DNA from: an uncultured Oscillospiraceae bacterium | Lineage (GTDB): Bacteria > Bacillota > Clostridia > Oscillospirales > Oscillospiraceae | Direction of reading: 5' to 3' | DNA: 64,000 nt | Assembly: GCA_947625045.1 (NCBI GenBank) | Contig: CANQMW010000007.1 | Span: forward strand, 1-64,000 | Part shown: positions 8,164-55,516 of the stretch, one piece after another | Layout of the letters: each line of letters opens with the position of its first letter | Numbering within the stretch: the first letter of the stretch is position 1 | Position numbers and translations under genes: made by a program | The notes under the pieces: generated by a model | Told to the model about the DNA's origin: nothing | Database searches by the model: none | The model's input: only the letters and a program-made list of their open reading frames with translations

Positions 8164-8378
8164 TTCTGTGTATGATTTGGATTACCGCTGTCACCCGGTC
8201 GACTATGACGCCTTTGCCACGAACCTGGGTCATCTGCCAGCATAGAAAGCGTCTTAACACTCAATGTAACAGGTAGTGCAAGAGCGCCAAACTTTTCTCT
8301 TTCACAATTTAACCCATTGACAAACGCATTTCCGTGTGATAGCGTCATATCAAGCTTGGGGCGATATGGAGGTTTAAC

Positions 8379-8624
8379 ATGAAGTCAACTGGGATCGTCC
8401 GAAAGGTGGATGAATTGGGCCGCATTGTGCTGCCTATTGAACTGCGCCGTACCATGGACATCGCGGTGCGTGACCCCCTGGAGGTTTACATGGCCGAGGA
8501 TACAGTCATATTGAAAAAGCATCAGCCTGCGTGCGTATTCTGCAACAGTTATAAAGACCTCACCAGCTATAAAGGAAAGAATATCTGCTCCTCATGTGTT
8601 ACCGCTCTGCTAAAAAAGGCATAA
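8379..8624 (+). CDS. AbrB/SpoVT-type DNA-binding protein with CxxC-CxxC tail
   Basis: MKSTGIVRKVDELGRIVLPIELRRTMDI; VFCNSYKD..NICSSCV. Confidence 0.88.
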   Translation: MKSTGIVRKVDELGRIVLPIELRRTMDIAVRDPLEVYMAEDTVILKKHQPACVFCNSYKDLTSYKGKNICSSCVTALLKKA

Positions 8625-8790
8625 CTGGCTACATCAGACTTCACTTATTTTCTTGGTTTCTTCAGAGCGTCCGCCTTCTGGCGGGCGCTCTTTTCTATTC
8701 ATTCGGCGTCTTTCTGAAATAAATGGGTGTCACAGATTGAAGCGCACGCTGCGTATCATTATGCCAGCGCCGGAGGCGGGCCACTGACGA

Positions 8791-10035
8791 TCAGGAGTAC
8801 ATCAGCCCAGGCATCTTTACCAGGTCCCGACCGTCACAGGGCATCTTCAAATCGCCCATGAGCGTTGCATAGGTAAGCGCTTTTTTCCCGTATCTCTCCC
8901 GAACAGCCTCCACGGCATCCTGCAGCCGTTCCCTGCGCTCCATTCGCTGCGTATCCACAAACAATGATAACTGGTCCGGCGTCTCTTGCGGCACCAAATT
9001 GGTAGCACGCACAGTGACAGCCCGGACCTTTGTTGTCCATGGGTACCGTTCGCAGAACAGCTTATATGCGCCGGAAGCTATCTCGCTGGGCAGCTGCGTC
9101 ATAAACGGCAGGTGCCCTCTGTACTGGGCACCCATGAGGTCGTTGCCGCGTACCCAAAGCTCCACGCCCCTTGCAGTCAGGCCATGGATGCGGAGCCGGT
9201 GCCCAATGTCCTGGGACAGCTCCAGAATCACCTTCCAGACCTCCTCCCTGTTCACCAGATCCGCCACACAGGTGATTCCATGGCCGATGGATTTGATTGG
9301 CGACTCATAGTCCTTATGCATGACCCGCGAGGTATCCGTCCCGCTGGCATACCGCCAAAGCGCTAGGCCGTTGACGCCCATGAGCCGCTGAAAAAACTCT
9401 GGTTCTGTGTTTGCGATGTCTCCGATGGTGTGTATTCCGTACTTGGCCAGTTTTGCTGTCGTTGCCCGACCGCAGTAGATCATATCGCTGGCTGGGAGCG
9501 GCCACACTTTCTCCCTGTAGTTCTCCGGGGTGATTTCCGTAATGGCGTCCGGTTTCTTCATGTCGGAGCCGAGCTTGGCAAAAACCTTATTATAGGAGAC
9601 CCCAACACTGACCGTGAGCCCCAGCTCCTCTTTCATCGAGCGGCGGATCTTCTCCGCTATAGTCATCCCGTCGCCGGCACTCCAACGGCTGTGTGTCACA
9701 TCCAGCCAGCACTCGTCCATCCCGAACGGCTCGATGAGATCCGTGTATCGCTGGTAGATGTTTCTGGCCAGCTTGGAATACTTTAAATACTCATCATAGT
9801 GCGGCAGCACCGACACCATGTCCGGGCAAAGCTGCTTTGCTTCCCAGTTGACCATCCCGGTCTTGACCCCGCACTTTTTCGCCTCCTCTGACTTTGCGAG
9901 CACAATCCCGTGCCGCTCCTCCGTTGCTCCACATACTACGACAGGTTTCCCCCGGAGCGTTGGATCAAGCATCATCTCGACCGAGGCGTAAAAGCAGTTC
10001 TGGTCACTGTGGAGTATAGTCCGCTGTTCCGCCAT
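8791..10035 (-). CDS. dinB: Y-family DNA polymerase (DinB/Pol IV-like)
   Basis: HSDQNCFYASVEMMLDP, PFGMDECWLDVT, VGVSYNKVFAKLGSDMKKPD; start at MAEQRT. Confidence 0.92.
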   Translation of the reverse strand: MAEQRTILHSDQNCFYASVEMMLDPTLRGKPVVVCGATEERHGIVLAKSEEAKKCGVKTGMVNWEAKQLCPDMVSVLPHYDEYLKYSKLARNIYQRYTDLIEPFGMDECWLDVTHSRWSAGDGMTIAEKIRRSMKEELGLTVSVGVSYNKVFAKLGSDMKKPDAITEITPENYREKVWPLPASDMIYCGRATTAKLAKYGIHTIGDIANTEPEFFQRLMGVNGLALWRYASGTDTSRVMHKDYESPIKSIGHGITCVADLVNREEVWKVILELSQDIGHRLRIHGLTARGVELWVRGNDLMGAQYRGHLPFMTQLPSEIASGAYKLFCERYPWTTKVRAVTVRATNLVPQETPDQLSLFVDTQRMERRERLQDAVEAVRERYGKKALTYATLMGDLKMPCDGRDLVKMPGLMYS

Positions 10036-10118
10036 GCTCCTCCCCTCCTTTGCGCTCATCTTATATTCGCTGCTGGAACTCGTCAAGGTCGCAGTTGTGT
10101 ACTATTAGGAGATTTTTG

Positions 10119-10173: not shown

Positions 10174-11007
10174 ATGAAAAGAGCAGACTGCAGCGGCGCG
10201 GTCATCCGCCTTGATGTTGCCACCAACGCCCCCTACAACATGGAGTCAGAGCGGGAAAGAAACGTCATCGGTTGCCGCATCAAAGAGGGGCGGCACAGAA
10301 TCGGGATGAATCTGGACGCCTTCTGCGAACACCTCAAGGACTACGGCGTTTCCGTAGGCCGCGGCGGACTCAGCAAGTGGGAAACGGGAGCGACGATCCC
10401 AAACGCATAGCAGCTGGTCGCTCTGGGCTATGCTCTCGGCGTAGAGCAGGACCCGGATTACTTCACAGGTGACTGCCACCGTGACCTGAACGATGAAGGC
10501 ATGAGAAAGGTCGCCTCATATAGGGCCGACCTGATCGCCTCCGGCAGGTACACGCCCGAGGCTCTCGAAACTGACTCCCATGGCTCCATCAAGTATATCG
10601 AGATGCCCATCAGCGACCTGTGTGTTTCCGCCGGCCCCAGTAACTTCATGGACGAGGAAAATTTCGAGCTGGTTTCTTTCCCTGCTGCTGCCGTTCCAGC
10701 GAAAGCTGATTTTGGCGTCCGTGTGTCCGGTGACAGTATGGAGCCTGCATACCATGACGGCCAGATCGTCTGGGTCGAGCAGTGCAGCCGTCTCAATGTC
10801 GGGGATGTAGGCGTTTTCATCTACGACAATGCCGGCTATTTGAAATCCTACAGCGAACAGCAGCCTGCCGAGGACATTTCCGATGCTTTCACAGACAGCA
10901 GCGGTAATTTGCGGCCGCAGCCGGTCCTCATTTCCTATAACCGGAAATATGCCCCGAAGGTCATCTCCCCCAGCTACCCATTCCAGATCCTCGGGAAAGT
11001 GCTCTGA
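10174..11007 (+). pseudogene. HTH plus S24 (LexA/CI-like) repressor interrupted by in-frame TAG at 10408-10410
   Basis: HTH ORF 10174-10410 and S24 ORF 10501-11007 are in one frame, open from 10411; VSGDSMEPAYHDGQIVWV Ser motif, GYLKSY Lys motif. Confidence 0.8.
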
Positions 11008-11090: not shown

Positions 11091-11360
11091 ATGGACACTA
11101 TGAAACGAGTAAAGGAGCTTGTGAAAGAGCGGAATATGAGCCTCTATAGTCTGGCTAAAACATGCGACATCTCATATTCCACACTGAAGAACACTGTCTC
11201 ACGCAACGGCCAGCTGACAGTCGACACCATCGAACGCATCTGCCAGGGCCTTGGGATCCCCATGTATGAGTTCTTCATGGAGAGAAAGGACCCGCCCAGG
11301 CCACAGGCGAGGAGGTTTTCACAGAATGAGCCAGAAAGTATATGTAGAAGTGCTCGTTGA
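11091..11360 (+). CDS. XRE-family HTH regulator
   Basis: MKRVKELVKERNMSLYSLAKTCDISYSTLKNTVSRNGQLTVDTIERICQGLGI. Confidence 0.8.
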   Translation: MDTMKRVKELVKERNMSLYSLAKTCDISYSTLKNTVSRNGQLTVDTIERICQGLGIPMYEFFMERKDPPRPQARRFSQNEPESICRSAR

Positions 11361-11595
11361 CCACGACCCTGAAGGGCGAATGCTCCCCAAGGTAATCACC
11401 TGGGAGGACGGCACCCGGTATGTGATCGATAAGGTCGTGGATATCCGGCAGGCAGCATCCCGTGTGGGTGGCCAGGGCGACCGATATACCATAAGGGTGC
11501 AGGGCCGTGAGAGCTGTCTGTTCTTCGAGAGAAGCGCCAATTTGACCGGTAATGTCATCGGCCGGTGGTTCGTAGAAAGACGCACCGCAGGATAA
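11326..11595 (+). CDS. Small beta-rich protein of the dinB cassette
   Basis: MSQKVYVEVLVDHDPEGRMLPKVITWEDGTRYVIDKVVDIRQ..; resembles the 53695-53925 protein. Confidence 0.7.
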   Translation: MSQKVYVEVLVDHDPEGRMLPKVITWEDGTRYVIDKVVDIRQAASRVGGQGDRYTIRVQGRESCLFFERSANLTGNVIGRWFVERRTAG

Positions 11596-45965: not shown

Positions 45966-46841
45966 TCACGATCTGTCGTCTTCCGCGATCTCCTTCAGAT
46001 ACTGGCCGTAGGCCGTCTGCTCCAGCGGCTCCGCCAGGCTCAGGAGCTGCTCCCTGTCGATGAAGCCCTTCCGGTAGGCGATCTCCTCGATGCAGGACAC
46101 ATACAGCCCCTGCCGCTTCTGGATGATGTTCACGAACTGGGCCGCCTCTTGCAAGCCATCGTATGTACCGGTGTCCAGCCAGGCCATGCCCCGGAAAAAC
46201 TTAACCGCGTGGAGCTGCCCCCGGCGCAGGTATTCCTGGTTCACCGCCGTGATCTCCAATTCACCCCGGGCGGAGGGCTTTATCGTCTTTGCGATGTCCA
46301 CCACCTGGCTGTCGTAGAAATAGAGCCCCGGCACGGCGTATTTTGATTTGGGCCGTCTGGGCTTTTCCTCCAGGGACAGCACCGTACCGTCCTTATCGAA
46401 TTCCACCACGCCGAAGTCGGATGGGTCGTGGACCGGATAGCCGAATACCACCGCCCCCTCCTTCACGTCCGTGGCCTTGCGCAGGAAGGAGGAAAAGCCG
46501 CTGCCGTAGAAGATATTGTCCCCCAGTATCAGCGCCACCCTGTCCCCGGCGATGAACTGCTCGCCGATGAGAAACGCCTCGGCCAGGCCGTTGGGCTTAT
46601 CCTGTTCGGCATAGGAAAACTTCATGCCCAGCTGGGTCCCGTCCCCCAGTATCTCCTGAAAAGCGGGCAGGTCCCGGGGCGTAGAGATGATGAGCACTTC
46701 CCGTATCCCCGCCAGCATCAGCGTGGACAGGGGGTAGTAGATCATGGGCTTGTCATAGACTGGTAGCAACTGCTTGCTAGTCATCTGCGTCAGCGGGTAT
46801 AGCCGCGTACCACTACCGCCCGCCAGTATGATCCCCTTCAT
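45966..46841 (-). CDS. rfbA: Glucose-1-phosphate thymidylyltransferase
   Basis: [46 protein letters not shown]. Confidence 0.97.
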
Positions 46842-46861: not shown

Positions 46862-47425
46862 CTAGTTCTCCCAGCCATGCTTCACCTGCTCCTGCTCTAA
46901 CTGCCCCAACATAATTTTTTCCGTTACTTGGGCCATCAGCTCTAATCTAGTTGCCTTGTACAGTTTCACCAGCGTCCGGGCACTGACCTCAATGCCCTCC
47001 ATGCCCGCAACTCTGCACACAACCCTTATCTGCTCCCGGACCGTCGGCCAGGTCGTGATTGGGGCCTCCTTGCCCACAAAGATAGCTCCGCTGCTGACCC
47101 CCTTTCGCCGGGCATAGCCCAAAAGCTCCTCCCGCAGACTGTCCGGAAGATGGACGGTCCTCTCCGCCGTCCGGATCTCTCCGGTCCTGACCTCCTCCAC
47201 CGTCAGCGCCAGAAGTTCCTGTGGCCAGATGCCCGTAGAGACTATCGCCCGCATGGCGAGATAGGCTAGCATCTTGCCTCTTTTCCTTGCAGCCTTCAGA
47301 AGTTCAAGGTACTGGTCCCGCGTGAGTTCGTTTTGCTGCGGCTTCTGCGCGTCAACCAGTTTCTGAGTTCTTTCCTTGGGGAGGTGCCTTAACGTTTGCT
47401 CTTGTACCTGAAATATCTCCTGCAT
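46862..47425 (-). CDS. Degenerate tyrosine-recombinase-like protein (short form)
   Basis: Paralog of 43745-44308; [33 protein letters not shown]; catalytic residues absent. Confidence 0.7.
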
Positions 47426-47427
47426 TC

Positions 47428-48960
47428 TTAAACCTCCCAGCTCGCTATGAGCTGTTCCTGCTCCACCTGCCGGTCCATCGCCTGCTCCACCAGTAGCGCG
47501 AAGCTGGCTTCAACCGCCGCTCTGGTGGTCTTATACAGCCGCCGCAGGCACTGGGGATTGCACTTCTCACTGGGAAGCCCCGCCTCCTCACCCAGCCTCG
47601 TGATGGACTGCACAATGCTGGCGTGGCTCATCGTTCTCACCCGGTACGACAAAAAGATAGGCCCATCGCCGATGTACTGCCGATCCGCATAGGCCAAAAG
47701 CTCCCGGCACAGGCACCCGGGCAAATGAAGCATAGTGCGCGTGCCCCTGGAATCGACCGTCAGGCACCCAGTCTTTGCCGCCTCCACCGTTACCTTTCTC
47801 AGCTGCTGCACCGGCAGGTCACAAGAGGCGAACAGCTTCACCAGCAGATATTCCCGCTCCCTGTCCAGCCGCTTCGCCGCCTGCAGCAGCTGCAGGTATT
47901 CGTTTCGGGTCAGCTCCGGCTGGGGGTTGTCCTTCTGTTTGGGAAGATCGGAAAGCTGATACGCCCGGTGCCCAATATAGTCCAAAAAACCATTCGCCAT
48001 GATGGCATAGCCGTTGATCGTGTTGGGGGCATAGCCCTTTTCCCGCAACAGTTCTACCCAACAGGCCAAGGTCCCCTTGCGGATACGCTTATCTGCTGGC
48101 AGGTCATTGTACAGCTGCTTCAAAATGACTCTGTACTGTTGGGCAGCCGCTGTGCGCCCTTTGGCATGCAATAACGACATATACCCCTCGATGTCCTCCT
48201 TGGTCATTAAAACGCCAAGGCCATCGGAGGGGGGCCATAAAACGCAACTCTTTTCCGCCATTGCTTTCGTTCCGGCAGTCTTTCTCGCCGGAAACGGTTT
48301 CTCTCGCCGTTTTGGAAAAGTAGGGCGGCTCTCCGCATCCGCCTGCCGATCCATGAACTGTTCCGCCATATCGACAGCCCGGGCCTCCGCATCCGCCTGC
48401 CGATTCATAAGCTGTTCCACCTTGTCGGCGGCCTGGGCCTTCGCATCCGCCTGCCGGTCCATGAACTGTTCCACCACGTCGGCGGCCTGTGCCTCCGCAT
48501 CTGCCTGCCGCTCCATGAGCTGTTCCACCATACTAGGGGCCCGGGCCTCCGCATCCGCCTTCGTATCCCGATACAGCTTCCTCAGTGCGCTTGGGCGGCA
48601 CTTCTCTTCCTCAAGTTCTGCCGAACGGCATAGGTTATGCAGGAACCTGGATACCTGCGTTGAGTTGTAAGGCCGCCCGTTTCGCGTGATGAACACCGGC
48701 CCGGATCGGACGCTCTTCCCCGCCGCATAGGCCGTGAGTTCCTCCTGCAGGCCCGCCGCCAGCGGCACGACGTCATGTTCCACTTTCAGCTTACCAGCCC
48801 GGACGGCTTCCACGGTCAGCTCCGGCAGTCCCAGTGTCGACACGCCGGTGGTGGCCATCACCTTCACCAACAGATACGAGCGCTCATCATTTGATTCCCT
48901 TGCCGTGTCCAGAAGATGCAGATACTCTTCCCGGGTGATATCAGCGCCCAAAGTCCACAT
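47428..48960 (-). CDS. 510-aa protein: two degenerate recombinase-like domains joined by an 18-aa repeat linker
   Basis: Two HTH/recombinase-like segments flank (ADAEARAxDMVEQLMDRQ)n; no Tyr box. Confidence 0.72.
   Translation of the reverse strand: MWTLGADITREEYLHLLDTARESNDERSYLLVKVMATTGVSTLGLPELTVEAVRAGKLKVEHDVVPLAAGLQEELTAYAAGKSVRSGPVFITRNGRPYNSTQVSRFLHNLCRSAELEEEKCRPSALRKLYRDTKADAEARAPSMVEQLMERQADAEAQAADVVEQFMDRQADAKAQAADKVEQLMNRQADAEARAVDMAEQFMDRQADAESRPTFPKRREKPFPARKTAGTKAMAEKSCVLWPPSDGLGVLMTKEDIEGYMSLLHAKGRTAAAQQYRVILKQLYNDLPADKRIRKGTLACWVELLREKGYAPNTINGYAIMANGFLDYIGHRAYQLSDLPKQKDNPQPELTRNEYLQLLQAAKRLDREREYLLVKLFASCDLPVQQLRKVTVEAAKTGCLTVDSRGTRTMLHLPGCLCRELLAYADRQYIGDGPIFLSYRVRTMSHASIVQSITRLGEEAGLPSEKCNPQCLRRLYKTTRAAVEASFALLVEQAMDRQVEQEQLIASWEV
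48332..48547. repeat. Four 54-bp tandem repeats (plus partial fifth), in frame within 47428-48960
   Basis: Unit starts at 48332, 48386, 48440, 48494, 48548. Confidence 0.92.
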
Positions 48961-49115
48961 CTTCTTGGGTCTCCTTTCTCCAGCCAGCGGAAGGACAGGT
49001 CAAAATTGAACTATCGTTTCTAGTGACAAAGGTTTGACCCCTCCATAATGAAAAGACCATCCTGCATGTGGACCATACAGGACGGCAAAATGAGATGCCA
49101 TGGGCATAGGAAAGC

Positions 49116-49146
49116 AGGCCGTTGAAAGATGTCGTTTCAACGGCCT
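49116..49146. other. Perfect 12-bp hairpin AGGCCGTTGAAA-N7-TTTCAACGGCCT
   Basis: Direct reading; no clear U-tract. Confidence 0.7.
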
Positions 49147-49207
49147 TAATGCGTATGCAAAGCTACTTGATTTGGATGCTTTTTACGCCGCATACAGAGA
49201 ATACTGC

Positions 49208-49236
49208 TTGATTTATATGTAGGGATATGGTATTAT
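49208..49236 (+). promoter_or_regulatory. Promoter-like TTGATT-N17-TATTAT
   Basis: -35 49208-49213, -10 49231-49236, 17-bp spacer. Confidence 0.5.
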
Positions 49237-49313
49237 TCTTTAGACGATTTGGTCGAATTACCGTAATTTGAACTGTTTGCCGGTCGCTTAAGTTCAATTC
49301 TGTTGATGTTCCG

Positions 49314-50186
49314 CTAGCTGACCAACCCCAACCGCTCCAGCGTCCGAGCATGTTCTGCCCCGGTGGTGATGAGGTATATCCGTGTCGTGTTGATGCTGGA
49401 GTGCCCCAGTACATCCGCCAGCTTCACGATATCGTGACAGGCCCGGTAAAATGTAGTGGCGAACAGATGCCGCAGGTTATGGGGGAAAACCTTGGATGGC
49501 TCCACGCCCGCCAGTTTGCACACTGCCTTCATCTCCGCCCATATCTGCCGCCGGCTCAAGCTTTTTCCGCTTCTGGTGAGAAATATCTCGCCGGAGGCAA
49601 TCTTATTTTTCCGGGCGTACTTTAGGAGCTTTCTGCATAGCTTTCCCGGTAACATGATGGTCCGTATCTTCCCCTTCAAGGTAATCTCTGCCTGGCCCGC
49701 TATAGCCGCCTCAACGGTCACGTACCGCACCTCGGACACCCGGATGCCCGTGCCGCAGATGGTCTCCATGAGTAAGGCAAGTCGGCTTCGACCACTGTCT
49801 ATCGCCGCTGTTACCAGCCGCTCATACTCGGTCTTCGTCAGTTCCCGGCCCGGCTCGCGGTAGGCCCTGCGCTGGAGTCGCAGGGCTTTGACGCAGCAGT
49901 CCTGCCAGCCGCAAAACTTTAAGAAAGCGTTCACCGCCGCCAGTTTCACGTTCACCGTGGTCGGAGCATAATGCTGGACCAGTTCATTCTTCCAAGCAAC
50001 CACCGCTTCCTTTGTGACATGACCATCCCCCAGCCATTCCGCAAACGCATGGACATTTGCCATATATGCACTTACTGTGCCCTCGCTTCGTTCTTCCCTC
50101 CGCAAATTAGACGCAAATGATTCGATTTCGTAGCCTTTCAACTTCCTTCTCATGTTGGGATACCTCCTCATTTTAATATCTTCCAT
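49314..50186 (-). CDS. Tyrosine recombinase, apparently catalytically intact
   Basis: GTGIRVSEVRYVTVEA, FPHNLRHLFATTFYRA, VLGHSSINTTRIYLI. Confidence 0.92.
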   Translation of the reverse strand: MEDIKMRRYPNMRRKLKGYEIESFASNLRREERSEGTVSAYMANVHAFAEWLGDGHVTKEAVVAWKNELVQHYAPTTVNVKLAAVNAFLKFCGWQDCCVKALRLQRRAYREPGRELTKTEYERLVTAAIDSGRSRLALLMETICGTGIRVSEVRYVTVEAAIAGQAEITLKGKIRTIMLPGKLCRKLLKYARKNKIASGEIFLTRSGKSLSRRQIWAEMKAVCKLAGVEPSKVFPHNLRHLFATTFYRACHDIVKLADVLGHSSINTTRIYLITTGAEHARTLERLGLVS

Positions 50187-50245: not shown

Positions 50246-50485
50246 ATGAGTACAGAAAAAGTCTTTCCTGATGATAAGACCATCCGGGATGCCATCTCAG
50301 GCGATCAGCAGGCAGTTGAAAAACTGCTGTCACATTACGCAGATGTAATTGATTCCTATGCGACTGTCGAAGTCCATAACCAGGACGGAACCACACGACA
50401 GTATGTTGATCCCGACCTCCGACAACATTTGGTGATGAAACTCCTGGAGGAACTACAGAGCTTCCCAGTAGATGAAGCAAAATAA
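50246..50485 (+). CDS. Small helix-turn-helix-type protein of the kind found in clostridial ICEs
   Basis: DDKTIRDAISGDQQAVEKLLSHYADVIDSYATVEVHNQDGTTRQYVDPDLRQHLVMKLLEEL. Confidence 0.75.
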   Translation: MSTEKVFPDDKTIRDAISGDQQAVEKLLSHYADVIDSYATVEVHNQDGTTRQYVDPDLRQHLVMKLLEELQSFPVDEAK

Positions 50486-50560: not shown

Positions 50561-53500
50561 TTAGTTTAACAAGTTATGTTGGTTAGAAATTAAAACATTG
50601 TGTTCTTGAAAACCACAAAGTTGACAAAGCTTTTGTCTTAATGAATGAGTACAAATTCGATGGTTGAGATAATAACCAACGATAGAATCGAGTACTCGAG
50701 CCGCATAGATTTCATTTTCACCCTCAAAGCAATCTCTCAATTGTTTAACATCATAATAGTTAAAACTATTTAAACAATTAATTTTAAGGTCGAGCAATAC
50801 GAGTTTGGAAGATATGGATGAATCAGCCTCAAATGAAGTTGTTGCTGCTCGTAATAAGTGCTTGCTGTTTAATGAGGTGGCAACTTGATGAACCATGTTG
50901 CTTGCCATTCCTGAAACCAAAATTTTGACAAAGGTACGAGTCGCTTGGAGCGCAGCCTCCCTTGTAATATTCTTATTATTCGCTACAGCGCGCTGATATG
51001 CAAATTCAACTAAATCACCCTCGATGAAAACTATCATATCATTTATAGCGCGCACTGCACGCATACCGAGTTTATGGATCTCGCTAATAATATTAATTTT
51101 ATCTTCGCCCTTAATATCAGTTGGATAATTTTGCAGAATTTGTCCCAGCACTTCAATTGTCTTTAGTGCTGACACAACTGCCGCCATGTCTTTATCTTTA
51201 TCTGAGAGACTGTCATCTATTATCTCTTCACCTTCATGCACCGAACCATCTACAATTCCTATTTCATCTTTTAGTGTAAGTTCTCTTCTCTGATTCTCTG
51301 AAACTTCATCATCCGTAGACGCGACGGAAGAAGGGACAAGTGCTTCTACGACTTCCTGAATATCCTCAAATATGGGATCATCTTTGTTGAAGTCGAACTC
51401 TTGATAATCATCCAACGTACAGTACGCATTCAACAGAACATTGTCAATCACCTCAGAACTATTTGCGAAGTGACACACAAAAATAACAATGTTTCCATAC
51501 GTCTCATTGTACAGTCTTGAACTCATATACTCAAGTAATTGTAGGACATCTTTATCTGCAATATTGGCAGCAATATATCTCCCGCAAAAGTAGTAAAATA
51601 TATATGGGTATTTAAATCTAAATACCTCGCCCGCGCTTTGATCCTTATAAAACAGTTTCGCTTTGAGCATATTGTTCAAGAACTCATTTACTGAAAGTCG
51701 AAGCATATATGTAGAGCTAATCACTTCAACCACCGCTTCTAATTCTTCTACTGTAAAGCTTGTTTTCTTTTCAGAAAGCATTAAATATGCCAACCTTGAC
51801 AAGATGCTTAAATCAGTATTAATATTTCCTGACTGGTAATAATCCTCCGACAGGACCTGAAGACTCCCAAGAATCAGCGACTCATACAAAAAACTATATT
51901 TGCTGCCTTTAAATATCGGCCTAACCGCATCAACATTTTGCAAAACGCTTAATACAGTTATTGGCATTGCTGGAATAAACGCAGCACCATTTCCTAAAAC
52001 CGTATCAACTTTATTTCTCGCCTGTTCTATACGTTCAGATATTTCAGGCTCAGTCATTGATCTGTTCTGCAAATGATACCACTTAGATATTAACTCGTTC
52101 CTTTTTGCGTTTCCGAGCGGTAAAATCTCATAGTATATGAGATTATCCCATGTTCTAACCGTTTTTGATGTCAGTATAGTTGCCAACTCTAATGGGGAGG
52201 TCAGCAGCAAGCTAACGTTTCCAAAATATCCACACAGAAAATCGACCACTTGGTTTCTTCTGTTGTTAGAATCTTTAATATAATCAAAATCATCGACAAT
52301 AATCTTTCTCTTTTCTCTCTTTAGTTGTCTAAAATCCTCCAATGCACTTTCTGAGTATTGAGAAACAAATGCCTCCTCAACAACTTTCATAATACTAGAC
52401 TCTGATGACGCAGTAAAGGACCTTCCATTTACAATCAAACAGCAACAATCAGAATCTTTTTCGCTAAAAAAGATTCTGTTGGCCAGAGCAGTCTTTCCAG
52501 CACATGAGTCTCCTGTCAAGATGTTTAATGAGTTCTTATTGAGCTCAGCTAGCACGTTCGTGCGTATGACTCTACTCCTCATCTTTTCGTTCTTGAAATT
52601 GCACTTGTTCAATTCCGGCCATACGTATATATCCGATAGCAATACTTCCTCGGCGGCAAAATGGTTAATTGTAACCCCAATATCATTTGCTCTATTAATA
52701 CTTTCCTCGTTAGGACAGTAGGGATTCATTGTAGCAGCAATATTCTTGTGATACTGCTGTTTATGTGCATTCCCCATTCGTTCGTATTTTTTGCCTGTCC
52801 AGCAATAGTCGATAATTTCGTATGTCTGAAGTGCGCCATCAAAGTTAATTACAGAGAATGCGCTCTCGTCATCGTCACTGTTCTGTAACTCTTTTCCTTT
52901 GTCAATATACAGCGAAAAATTATCCCAACCCTTATTATAGTTATCTCTGTTATGTTCATGTCCCATGAGCACAATATCAGCTTTACTTCGTATGTAGTTA
53001 ATGAAGTCGGTTTTATGATCGGGGTTCATCCAATTTATTGGATGATGGAAAAGAAATACCACAACCCTGTAATTCTCTGGAGATATATCTTCAAAGTGCT
53101 CGGTCGGCATAACTATTTTGCCGGGCACTTCGCAAATTTTAGACATCCATGATGTGTTCGCCATCACAAATAAGCATTTGCTTCCATCGACTTCTATCTC
53201 TGATCTCGGCAAATACATGTCAGTATTAATCCCATGTGCTTTAGCAAATTCAAAATAGCCCTGCTGCACCACGGTCACATTCCTATAGAAATCATCATCA
53301 AGTTTACTTTGGTGGACACTATTTATCAAAACTTCCCTCGTTGTTGTTTCTCTGTCAAAGTCGCAGTCATGGTTTCCTGGTACACATATAAAATGCACTT
53401 TAGAATTCTTCTCTTTTTCTATAAACTCTGCTATATCATTAATCAGTTCATTAGCCAAATCATATTGTTGCTTTTTTCCAGAATACGCAATATCACCCGT

Positions 53501-53668
53501 TATCGCAAGTACAACATCCCCGTTGCTAGGCAATGCGCTAGCACAGGCAGAAGCCAACTTGTCCTTCTTCATCAGGATAGTATCATCATGTCCACTTATA
53601 TGTATATCAGACAAGTGAATAATTGACAGGCTCATATCTTTCTTCCCCCAAATCAGTATGAATGTCAA
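50561..53668 (-). CDS. Calcineurin-like metallophosphoesterase fused to a STAND/NACHT-like P-loop NTPase and helical C-terminus
   Basis: LSIIHLSDIHISG, ITGDIAYSG, VPGNHDCDF, FLFHHPINW, LMGHEHNRD; then NILTGDSCAGKTALANR Walker A and KIIVDDFDYI Walker B. Confidence 0.85.
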   Translation of the reverse strand: MTFILIWGKKDMSLSIIHLSDIHISGHDDTILMKKDKLASACASALPSNGDVVLAITGDIAYSGKKQQYDLANELINDIAEFIEKEKNSKVHFICVPGNHDCDFDRETTTREVLINSVHQSKLDDDFYRNVTVVQQGYFEFAKAHGINTDMYLPRSEIEVDGSKCLFVMANTSWMSKICEVPGKIVMPTEHFEDISPENYRVVVFLFHHPINWMNPDHKTDFINYIRSKADIVLMGHEHNRDNYNKGWDNFSLYIDKGKELQNSDDDESAFSVINFDGALQTYEIIDYCWTGKKYERMGNAHKQQYHKNIAATMNPYCPNEESINRANDIGVTINHFAAEEVLLSDIYVWPELNKCNFKNEKMRSRVIRTNVLAELNKNSLNILTGDSCAGKTALANRIFFSEKDSDCCCLIVNGRSFTASSESSIMKVVEEAFVSQYSESALEDFRQLKREKRKIIVDDFDYIKDSNNRRNQVVDFLCGYFGNVSLLLTSPLELATILTSKTVRTWDNLIYYEILPLGNAKRNELISKWYHLQNRSMTEPEISERIEQARNKVDTVLGNGAAFIPAMPITVLSVLQNVDAVRPIFKGSKYSFLYESLILGSLQVLSEDYYQSGNINTDLSILSRLAYLMLSEKKTSFTVEELEAVVEVISSTYMLRLSVNEFLNNMLKAKLFYKDQSAGEVFRFKYPYIFYYFCGRYIAANIADKDVLQLLEYMSSRLYNETYGNIVIFVCHFANSSEVIDNVLLNAYCTLDDYQEFDFNKDDPIFEDIQEVVEALVPSSVASTDDEVSENQRRELTLKDEIGIVDGSVHEGEEIIDDSLSDKDKDMAAVVSALKTIEVLGQILQNYPTDIKGEDKINIISEIHKLGMRAVRAINDMIVFIEGDLVEFAYQRAVANNKNITREAALQATRTFVKILVSGMASNMVHQVATSLNSKHLLRAATTSFEADSSISSKLVLLDLKINCLNSFNYYDVKQLRDCFEGENEIYAARVLDSIVGYYLNHRICTHSLRQKLCQLCGFQEHNVLISNQHNLLN

Positions 53669-53694
53669 TATTATACCTTGTTTAGGGTGTTATT

Positions 53695-53925
53695 TCAAGA
53701 GTCATGGTTTGTTTGTTCGATGACTAACCATTTATCACCGTCAAAAAACAGGACAAATTGCCGCTCATCTGATATGCACTCGAACTTGTGTCTTTCAGCT
53801 TTTCCTATTGCAATTCGTTTAACCTTCCGAAATAAATGTGTCTCACCCCAGCTATCTGTGATGCCTAATGGCAATATTTCCCCATCAGGATAATAATCTG
53901 CTCTGACAATATACTTATTTGCCAT
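53695..53925 (-). CDS. Small beta-rich protein
   Basis: MANKYIVRADYYPDGEILPLGITDSWGETHLFRKVKRI..FVLFFDGDKWLVIE; 26 bp upstream of the MPE-STAND gene. Confidence 0.65.
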   Translation of the reverse strand: MANKYIVRADYYPDGEILPLGITDSWGETHLFRKVKRIAIGKAERHKFECISDERQFVLFFDGDKWLVIEQTNHDS

Positions 53926-54307: not shown

Positions 54308-55516
54308 ATGAACGCAGTTGGTATCGACGTTTCCAAAGGCAAGAGCATGGTGGCCGCCATGCGCCCCTTTGGAGAAGTGGTGTTCTCTCCCTTTGAGGTA
54401 CATCACACAGACAGCGAACTGTGCAGCTTGGCAGAGAAGCTCATAAGCCTGCCAGGTGAAACCCGCGTGGTAATGGAGTATACGGGAAACTACCACGCTC
54501 CGGCAGCACAGGCGCTTTGTGCAGCCGGGATCTATGTCTCCGTAGTCAATCCCATCCTGGTACATGACTACGGGAACAACAGTTTAAGACGGGCCAAGAC
54601 CGACAAAAAGGACGCCATAAAGCTGGCAAATTACGCTCTGGATCACTGGCTTTCTCTGCCGCAGTATTTCCCCGAAGAGGATACGCGGCATTTACTCAAA
54701 GTCTGCTATCGCCAGTACCAGCAGCTCAGTAGGATGCAGACCATGCAGAAGAACAATCTCATTTCTCTGCTCGATTCCACATTCCCTGGCGCAAACCGCC
54801 TGTTCTCAAGCCCTCCTCGTGCGGATGGAAGCGAAAAATGGGTGGACTTCGTGGCCCATTTCTGGCATTGCGAGTGTGTTTGCGGTACGTCTGTTGCGGA
54901 GTTCACTCGCCGGTATGAAAGATGGTGCCGGAGGCACGGCTATAACTTCAGTGCGGAGAAAGCCTCTGAGATATACACGGATTCTTGCGGTTATCCCAGC
55001 GTCTTGCCGAAGAGCGACACTACAAAGGTACTCATTCAGCAGGCCGTAGCTCAGCTCCAAGCCTCTTCATCTTCCCTGGCAGTTCTCCGCCAGCGCATGA
55101 CCACGCTTGCACAAATGCTGCCGGAATACCCCATCGTCATGAAGATGTATGGCGTCGGGCAAACCCTCGGCCCTCAACTCATGGCCGAGATCGGCGACGT
55201 TCGCCGGTTCCATTCCAAAAAAGCCCTTGTAGCCTTTGCCGGTATTGACGCGCCTCCCTACCAATCTGGCACGGTAGACGTCCGCAGCCGCAGTATCTCC
55301 AAGCGGGGCTCAGCATCCTTACGCCGGACGCTCTTTCTTGTCATGGGCGCTATCCTGCGCACCTCGCCAGCGGATGAGCCCATCTTCCAGTTCATGAACA
55401 GAAAACGCGCCGAGGGTAAACCCTACAAGGTCTACATGATGGCCTCCGCCAACAAATTCCTTCGCACCTACTATGCCACAGTAAAAGCGTATCTGAACGC
55501 CCTGGAAGACTGCTGA
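54308..55516 (+). mobile_element. IS110-family transposase (DEDD plus transposase_20)
   Basis: VGIDVSKGKSMVAAM; RRAKTDKKDAIKLANYAL; MKMYGVGQTLGPQLMAEIGDVRRFHSKKALVAFAGIDAPPYQSG. Confidence 0.95.

Follow-up and report, generated by a model that had tools for sequence, protein, structure and literature searches.

A probable anti-phage gene of the DS-8 family and a linked small gene in an uncultured Oscillospiraceae bacterium

Introduction

DS-8, validated by DeWeirdt, Mahoney and Laub, consists of one protein that combines a metallophosphatase with a NACHT domain and protects E. coli against phage, and mutants in the metallophosphatase or in the NACHT domain lose defence (PMC13092281; DefensePredictor). 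A cyclic nucleotide substrate was proposed by its authors, together with a comparison with SMPDL3A (PMC13092281). In STAND proteins more broadly, the exchange of effectors (TIR, calcineurin-like and others) has been described in general terms (PMC8195603).

Here we analyze a stretch of 64,000 nucleotides, called the window below, from an uncultured Oscillospiraceae bacterium (contig CANQMW010000007.1 of assembly GCA_947625045.1, positions 1 to 64,000), in which a fusion of a phosphoesterase to a P-loop NTPase with a small gene just upstream had been put forward as a candidate anti-phage system. Our best explanation, to which we give a probability of roughly three in four, is that the large gene is a horizontally acquired anti-phage gene of the DS-8 family, on a distinct clostridial branch of it, with the mechanism and the role for the small protein that are proposed below.

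The large gene and its assignment to DS-8

Positions 50561-53668 on the minus strand form a single intact open frame. Translation very probably begins at ATG 53635 and not at TTG 53668, since GGGGGAAGAA lies at 53640-53649 and the starts of the relatives align with this position, and the product from there is 1,024 aa long. With that start, the spacing between the small gene and the large gene is 59 nt, not 26. The features of the pair are as follows.

50561-53635 (minus strand): DS-8-type metallophosphoesterase-STAND protein, 1,024 aa, matching NF053861 over its full length; ribosome-binding site and start as above, supported by alignment
52736-53635 (minus strand): putative metallophosphoesterase effector domain, aa 1-300, with motifs kept in the phosphoesterase-type relatives
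52046-52573 (minus strand): STAND/NACHT-like P-loop NTPase core, aa 355-530, which holds both Walker motifs
51587-51760 (minus strand): nSTAND_NTPase4 region, aa 626-683 (PF24406, E 6e-9, exceeding the cut-off)
50564-51568 (minus strand): all-helical C-terminal region in the AlphaFold2 model, aa 690-1024, presumed sensor
53695-53925 (minus strand): 76-aa all-beta partner protein in the model, with homologues directly upstream of DS-8 in L065, L074 and L075
53670-53698 (minus strand): promoter-like site for the DS-8 gene, TTGAAA-17-TATAAT

The predicted architecture of an N-terminal phosphoesterase effector, a STAND/NACHT NTPase and a helical, sensor-like C-terminus was borne out, with all motifs intact. 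Pfam Metallophos matches across the N-terminal 240 residues (E 4e-14), and the alignment places all five phosphoesterase motifs, SDIH, TGDIAYSG, PGNHD, FHHP and GHEH (aa 9-12, 46-53, 86-92, 197-198 and 225-228), in register with the relatives, as it does the intact Walker A motif GDSCAGKT (aa 375-382; 52490-52513, minus strand) and Walker B motif IIVDDFD (from aa 445). An AlphaFold2 model built from a 30-sequence alignment reached a mean pLDDT of 82 and a pTM of 0.64, and in a Foldseek comparison with the PDB its NTPase part matched the NLR proteins NLRC4, NOD2 and NLRP3. The C-terminal helical region is presumed to be the sensor from what is known of STAND proteins in general.

NCBIfam model NF053861 (DS8_antiphage) gives the window protein 792.5 bits where the cut-off is 790, a marginal score, although the match covers positions 1-993 of the 994 in the profile. 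More distant members score 977-1169, and within the same branch L008 scores 818, L074 798 and L075 only 693, below the cut-off. It is thus the divergence of its clade that puts the window protein on the margin of the model, and not an incomplete match. Members above the cut-off are rare around it: sampling 392 genomes from its class gave one besides the window's own, and sampling 399 from its phylum gave one. The window's own genome also holds a second, distant phosphoesterase gene (G000:C56:1332-2078, within a 533-aa frame) that matches the N-terminus of the DS-8 profile (E 1e-14).

Because DS-8 is already validated for defence, the large gene is not a new candidate; it falls into a characterized family, the outcome that the original prediction itself had named as counting against it. 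What held was its guess at an anti-phage role, given that the large protein belongs by its sequence to DS-8, and at this locus we infer that function by analogy. The window protein is about 23% identical over most of its length to E. coli genes labelled "anti-phage protein" in RefSeq, a set that may not include the validated gene. With this identity and a margin of 2.5 bits, the same substrate or trigger as in E. coli DS-8 should not be assumed.

Other affiliations fared less well. The gene had also been read as Avs- or bNACHT-type, and of this the Avs part fell away, since no PADLOC Avs protein model matched, and Pfam NACHT stayed below its gathering score (20.7 versus 26.7 bits), while the NACHT/NLR-like character survives in the predicted fold. 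Membership in DS-9 was rejected, with NF053862 at 37.9 bits against a cut-off of 420 and no HAD gene adjacent. The only PADLOC models that matched the large protein were PDC-S60 and PDC-S10; the candidate PDC-S60 spans the same family as the DS-8 relatives, and a literature search on PDC-S60 and on this architecture returned nothing.

An AT-rich insert among mobile elements

The pair has a GC content of 37-41%, against 52-59% in the flanks, and is an AT-rich insert of foreign composition between recombinases and an IS110 element. Its immediate surroundings are these.

49314-50186 (minus strand): intact tyrosine recombinase flanking the insert (Phage_integrase, E 6e-25)
50246-50485 (plus strand): HTH_16 protein, convergent with DS-8 (PF12645, E 7e-18)
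54308-55516 (plus strand): IS110-family transposase flanking the insert (DEDD_Tnp_IS110, E 1e-34)

Beside the tyrosine recombinase lie two further integrase-like genes at 46862-48960, so that 46862-50186 (minus strand) holds three consecutive genes of this kind, one of them apparently a double-length fusion, and a nucleotidyltransferase gene (45966-46841) adjoins them. Neighbors of the DS-8 relatives include restriction or recombinase genes; one relative is near a Pycsar effector, and in E. coli one copy is flanked by yggR and yggS and accompanied by recombinases and a helicase.

Relatives that carry TIR in place of the phosphoesterase

A contig scan with the single protein as query gave no match, whereas an alignment-based scan succeeded: with the STAND and C-terminal part, 85,488 species genomes yielded 61 loci, and viral contigs yielded 5 more. 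Where N-termini are complete they are of two kinds, a phosphoesterase in proteins of about 1,000-1,050 aa or a TIR domain in proteins of about 845 aa, the TIR call being made from an ISYSHKDE-type N-terminus and, for one member (L100), from a TIR model match as well. A tree built on the core that all of them share, with 63 rows, separates 27 members of the TIR kind from 36 of the phosphoesterase kind, with two to three changes. As TIR replaces the phosphoesterase on the same STAND core in 27 relatives, the phosphoesterase is best read, from these alignments, as an exchangeable effector domain.

Two oddities within this set deserve mention. The phosphoesterase-type protein of L096 (3071-6133) has a core that groups with the TIR side, possibly a separate effector swap, on a long branch of unsure placement. 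A mostly proteobacterial DS-8 clade (L087, L088, L090, L091, L098, L118, L085 and L115) no longer has the Walker A lysine, reading GxxxxGCT there (GRT in L115), while its phosphoesterase motifs and Walker B are kept, in contrast with the essential NTPase of E. coli DS-8.

What the phosphoesterase may cleave

The original prediction allowed for either nucleic acid or a nucleotide as the substrate, and both are possible. On the evidence of sequence and model, the domain leans slightly toward the nucleotide type and appears nearer to class III phosphodiesterases than to nucleases. In the Foldseek comparison with the PDB, the phosphoesterase part matched Rv0805, purple acid phosphatase, CD73 and Mre11, with Rv0805 as the best structural match. 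The HHP motif, which the domain carries, is typical of class III phosphodiesterases. The published SMPDL3A comparison agrees with this lean.

If the domain were instead a nuclease of the Mre11/SbcD kind, it would degrade DNA or RNA after activation rather than act as a phosphodiesterase on nucleotides or cyclic nucleotides. Both groups share the five motifs, and chains of SbcD and Mre11 also match the phosphoesterase profile of the family when it is used alone (E 5e-4 to 9e-4), but LMO2642 (4e-7) and GpdQ (1e-6) match it better, and the structural match to Rv0805 and the HHP motif point the same way. We regard the nuclease as a serious contender that has somewhat the worse of the argument, and keep the nucleotide-type phosphodiesterase as the preferred, if slight, reading.

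The small gene and the clostridial DS-8 clade

The window protein forms with L008/L065, L074 and L075 a distinct clostridial clade (support 100/100) on a long stem, in which the large proteins are about 31-54% identical to the window DS-8. At all four loci of this clade a homologue of the 76-aa gene lies directly upstream on the same strand, the copies being 25-47% identical to that of the window. The counterparts at the three other loci confirm that the 76-aa gene is real, and the suggestion that it partners the large gene finds backing in this conserved linkage, read from four loci of one clade. No homologue was found beside the other full-length DS-8 loci (0 of about 28), and a profile of the four small proteins gave no match next to the remaining DS-8 and TIR-STAND loci that we examined, those of E. 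coli included. In a search of 292 genomes from the class, small genes of the close type turned up only in the 2 genomes with a clade-type DS-8. Searches for the small protein in plasmids, phages and viral contigs found none, and a search for further clade members in the family of genome G252 and in viral contigs gained none. One match, in genome G110, was discarded because it runs antisense to a long, repeat-rich frame resembling a surface protein. At locus L065 of G252, the small gene and DS-8 are preceded on their strand by a LexA-like gene and by another of 79 aa (8288-8932).

AlphaFold2 predicts for the 76-aa protein, from three sequences, an all-beta fold of seven strands (pLDDT 85), and this model has no significant fold match in the PDB (best E 0.22). 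Pfam, NCBIfam, PADLOC and PHROGs likewise gave no match to the protein.

Weaker matches in the 292-genome search point to a kinship. All nine similar-sized small proteins found there adjoin dinB, the gene for DNA polymerase IV, as recognized by the DinB motif at eight loci and, at the ninth (L148), by eye from a DinB fragment at a contig end. A profile-profile comparison (hhalign) of the 76-aa family with a dinB-side family, the latter built from six dinB-side members and L007, which adjoins a LexA-like gene, gave a probability of 96.4 and an E of 1.1e-9 over 67 columns. Since the profiles match, the small proteins linked to DS-8 are diverged relatives of a clostridial family linked to dinB. 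That family (L141-L149 and L153-L164), of about 77-98 aa and mostly beside dinB, came up with the dinB-side profile in 29 of 149 genomes from the order, and the member tested had no significant match in Pfam or NCBIfam. The window has a dinB of its own (8791-10059, minus strand), an S24/LexA-like gene (10501-11007, plus strand) and a dinB-type small protein (11329-11583, plus strand); with the last of these and the 76-aa gene, it holds two members of the small-protein superfamily.

The promoter-like site listed above, which has 11 of 12 matches (chance 0.0035 in simple shuffles), runs from the 3' end of the small gene into the gap that separates it from DS-8. Similar sites occur at the same place in L074 (11/12, 0.0015), in L065 (10/12, 0.044) and, weakly, in L075 (9/12, 0.25), so DS-8 may be transcribed from a promoter of its own, which makes a common transcript for both genes less likely. 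An inverted repeat resembling an operator, GTATGATATA...TATATCATAC, lies across the -10 site in the gap before DS-8 of L075 (about 1560-1630). No SOS box (GAAC-N4-GTTC) was found when the window was searched for one ahead of the pair; it has only sites with one or two mismatches, inside genes.

Could the 76-aa gene be a passenger, a small dinB-type gene that travelled along with a single DS-8 ancestor and does nothing for it? The four loci form one clade, so the association may be a single event, and the promoter-like site of the large gene's own fits this as well. Yet the clade is deep, and adjacency, order and strand are kept in four of four loci at those levels of identity, as are the A, G, P, G and W positions of the small protein, for which reasons we hold a passenger to be unlikely. 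The 76-aa protein may rather control or assist the DS-8 protein of this branch, as a regulator or a cofactor. A bolder version, in which the clade is a two-gene clostridial subtype of DS-8 and the small protein of the dinB-linked family serves as a dedicated regulator or co-sensor, possibly tying immunity to signals of DNA damage or replication, is one that we put forward tentatively.

A proposed mechanism

By comparison with DS-8 and with NACHT/STAND proteins, the large protein would be closed and inactive at rest. Its helical C-terminus would recognize something made during phage infection, and binding of NTP would drive oligomerization. The N-terminal phosphoesterases, clustered in this way, would hydrolyze a cellular phosphodiester, whether a nucleotide, a cyclic nucleotide or a nucleic acid, and growth would stop before the phage matures. 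The 76-aa all-beta protein would most likely be a regulator or cofactor dedicated to this branch, with its origin in a small-protein family that is elsewhere linked to dinB.

That the phosphoesterase modulates another system by removing a signalling nucleotide of host or phage, in a cGAMP-like role for which the SMPDL3A comparison and the cyclic nucleotide substrate proposed by the DS-8 authors (PMC13092281) speak, rather than killing as an effector, seems improbable to us, as the domain occupies the place of TIR in sister proteins and one DS-8 gene is enough for defence in E. coli MG1655, no partner synthetase having been cloned with it.

Comparison with known systems

The analysis places what was an unknown candidate in a defence family that is named and already validated. 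Three further points, all of them testable, go beyond published DS-8 as far as the sequences tell: a partner gene specific to one clade, the kinship of this small gene with the dinB-linked family, and the exchange of phosphoesterase and TIR on one sensor core. The last bears on how the phosphoesterase acts, and a comparison of TIR and phosphoesterase members that share one core could help to find the DS-8 substrate.

The likeness to Avs and bNACHT lies in how such proteins would work, through an effector, a STAND/NACHT NTPase and a C-terminal sensor. DS-9A is more remote, its metallophosphatase (NF053862) being a distant match to the first ~100 residues of the window protein, and the HAD-phosphatase partner of that system is missing here. 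The TIR-STAND proteins covered by PDC-S60 share the STAND and C-terminal core (about 20-24% identity, aa ~310-1010) and differ in the effector, which is TIR in them and a phosphoesterase in the window protein. The 76-aa protein has the A, G, P, G and W positions in common with the dinB-linked small proteins, though it is without their AASLKxGGxGxRY segment and its gene adjoins DS-8 instead of dinB. Closest of all is DS-8 itself, with the same N-terminal metallophosphoesterase, NACHT-like NTPase and helical C-terminus, equal length and all catalytic motifs; but where DS-8 is described as a single-protein system, the clade of the window protein has an added 76-aa gene.
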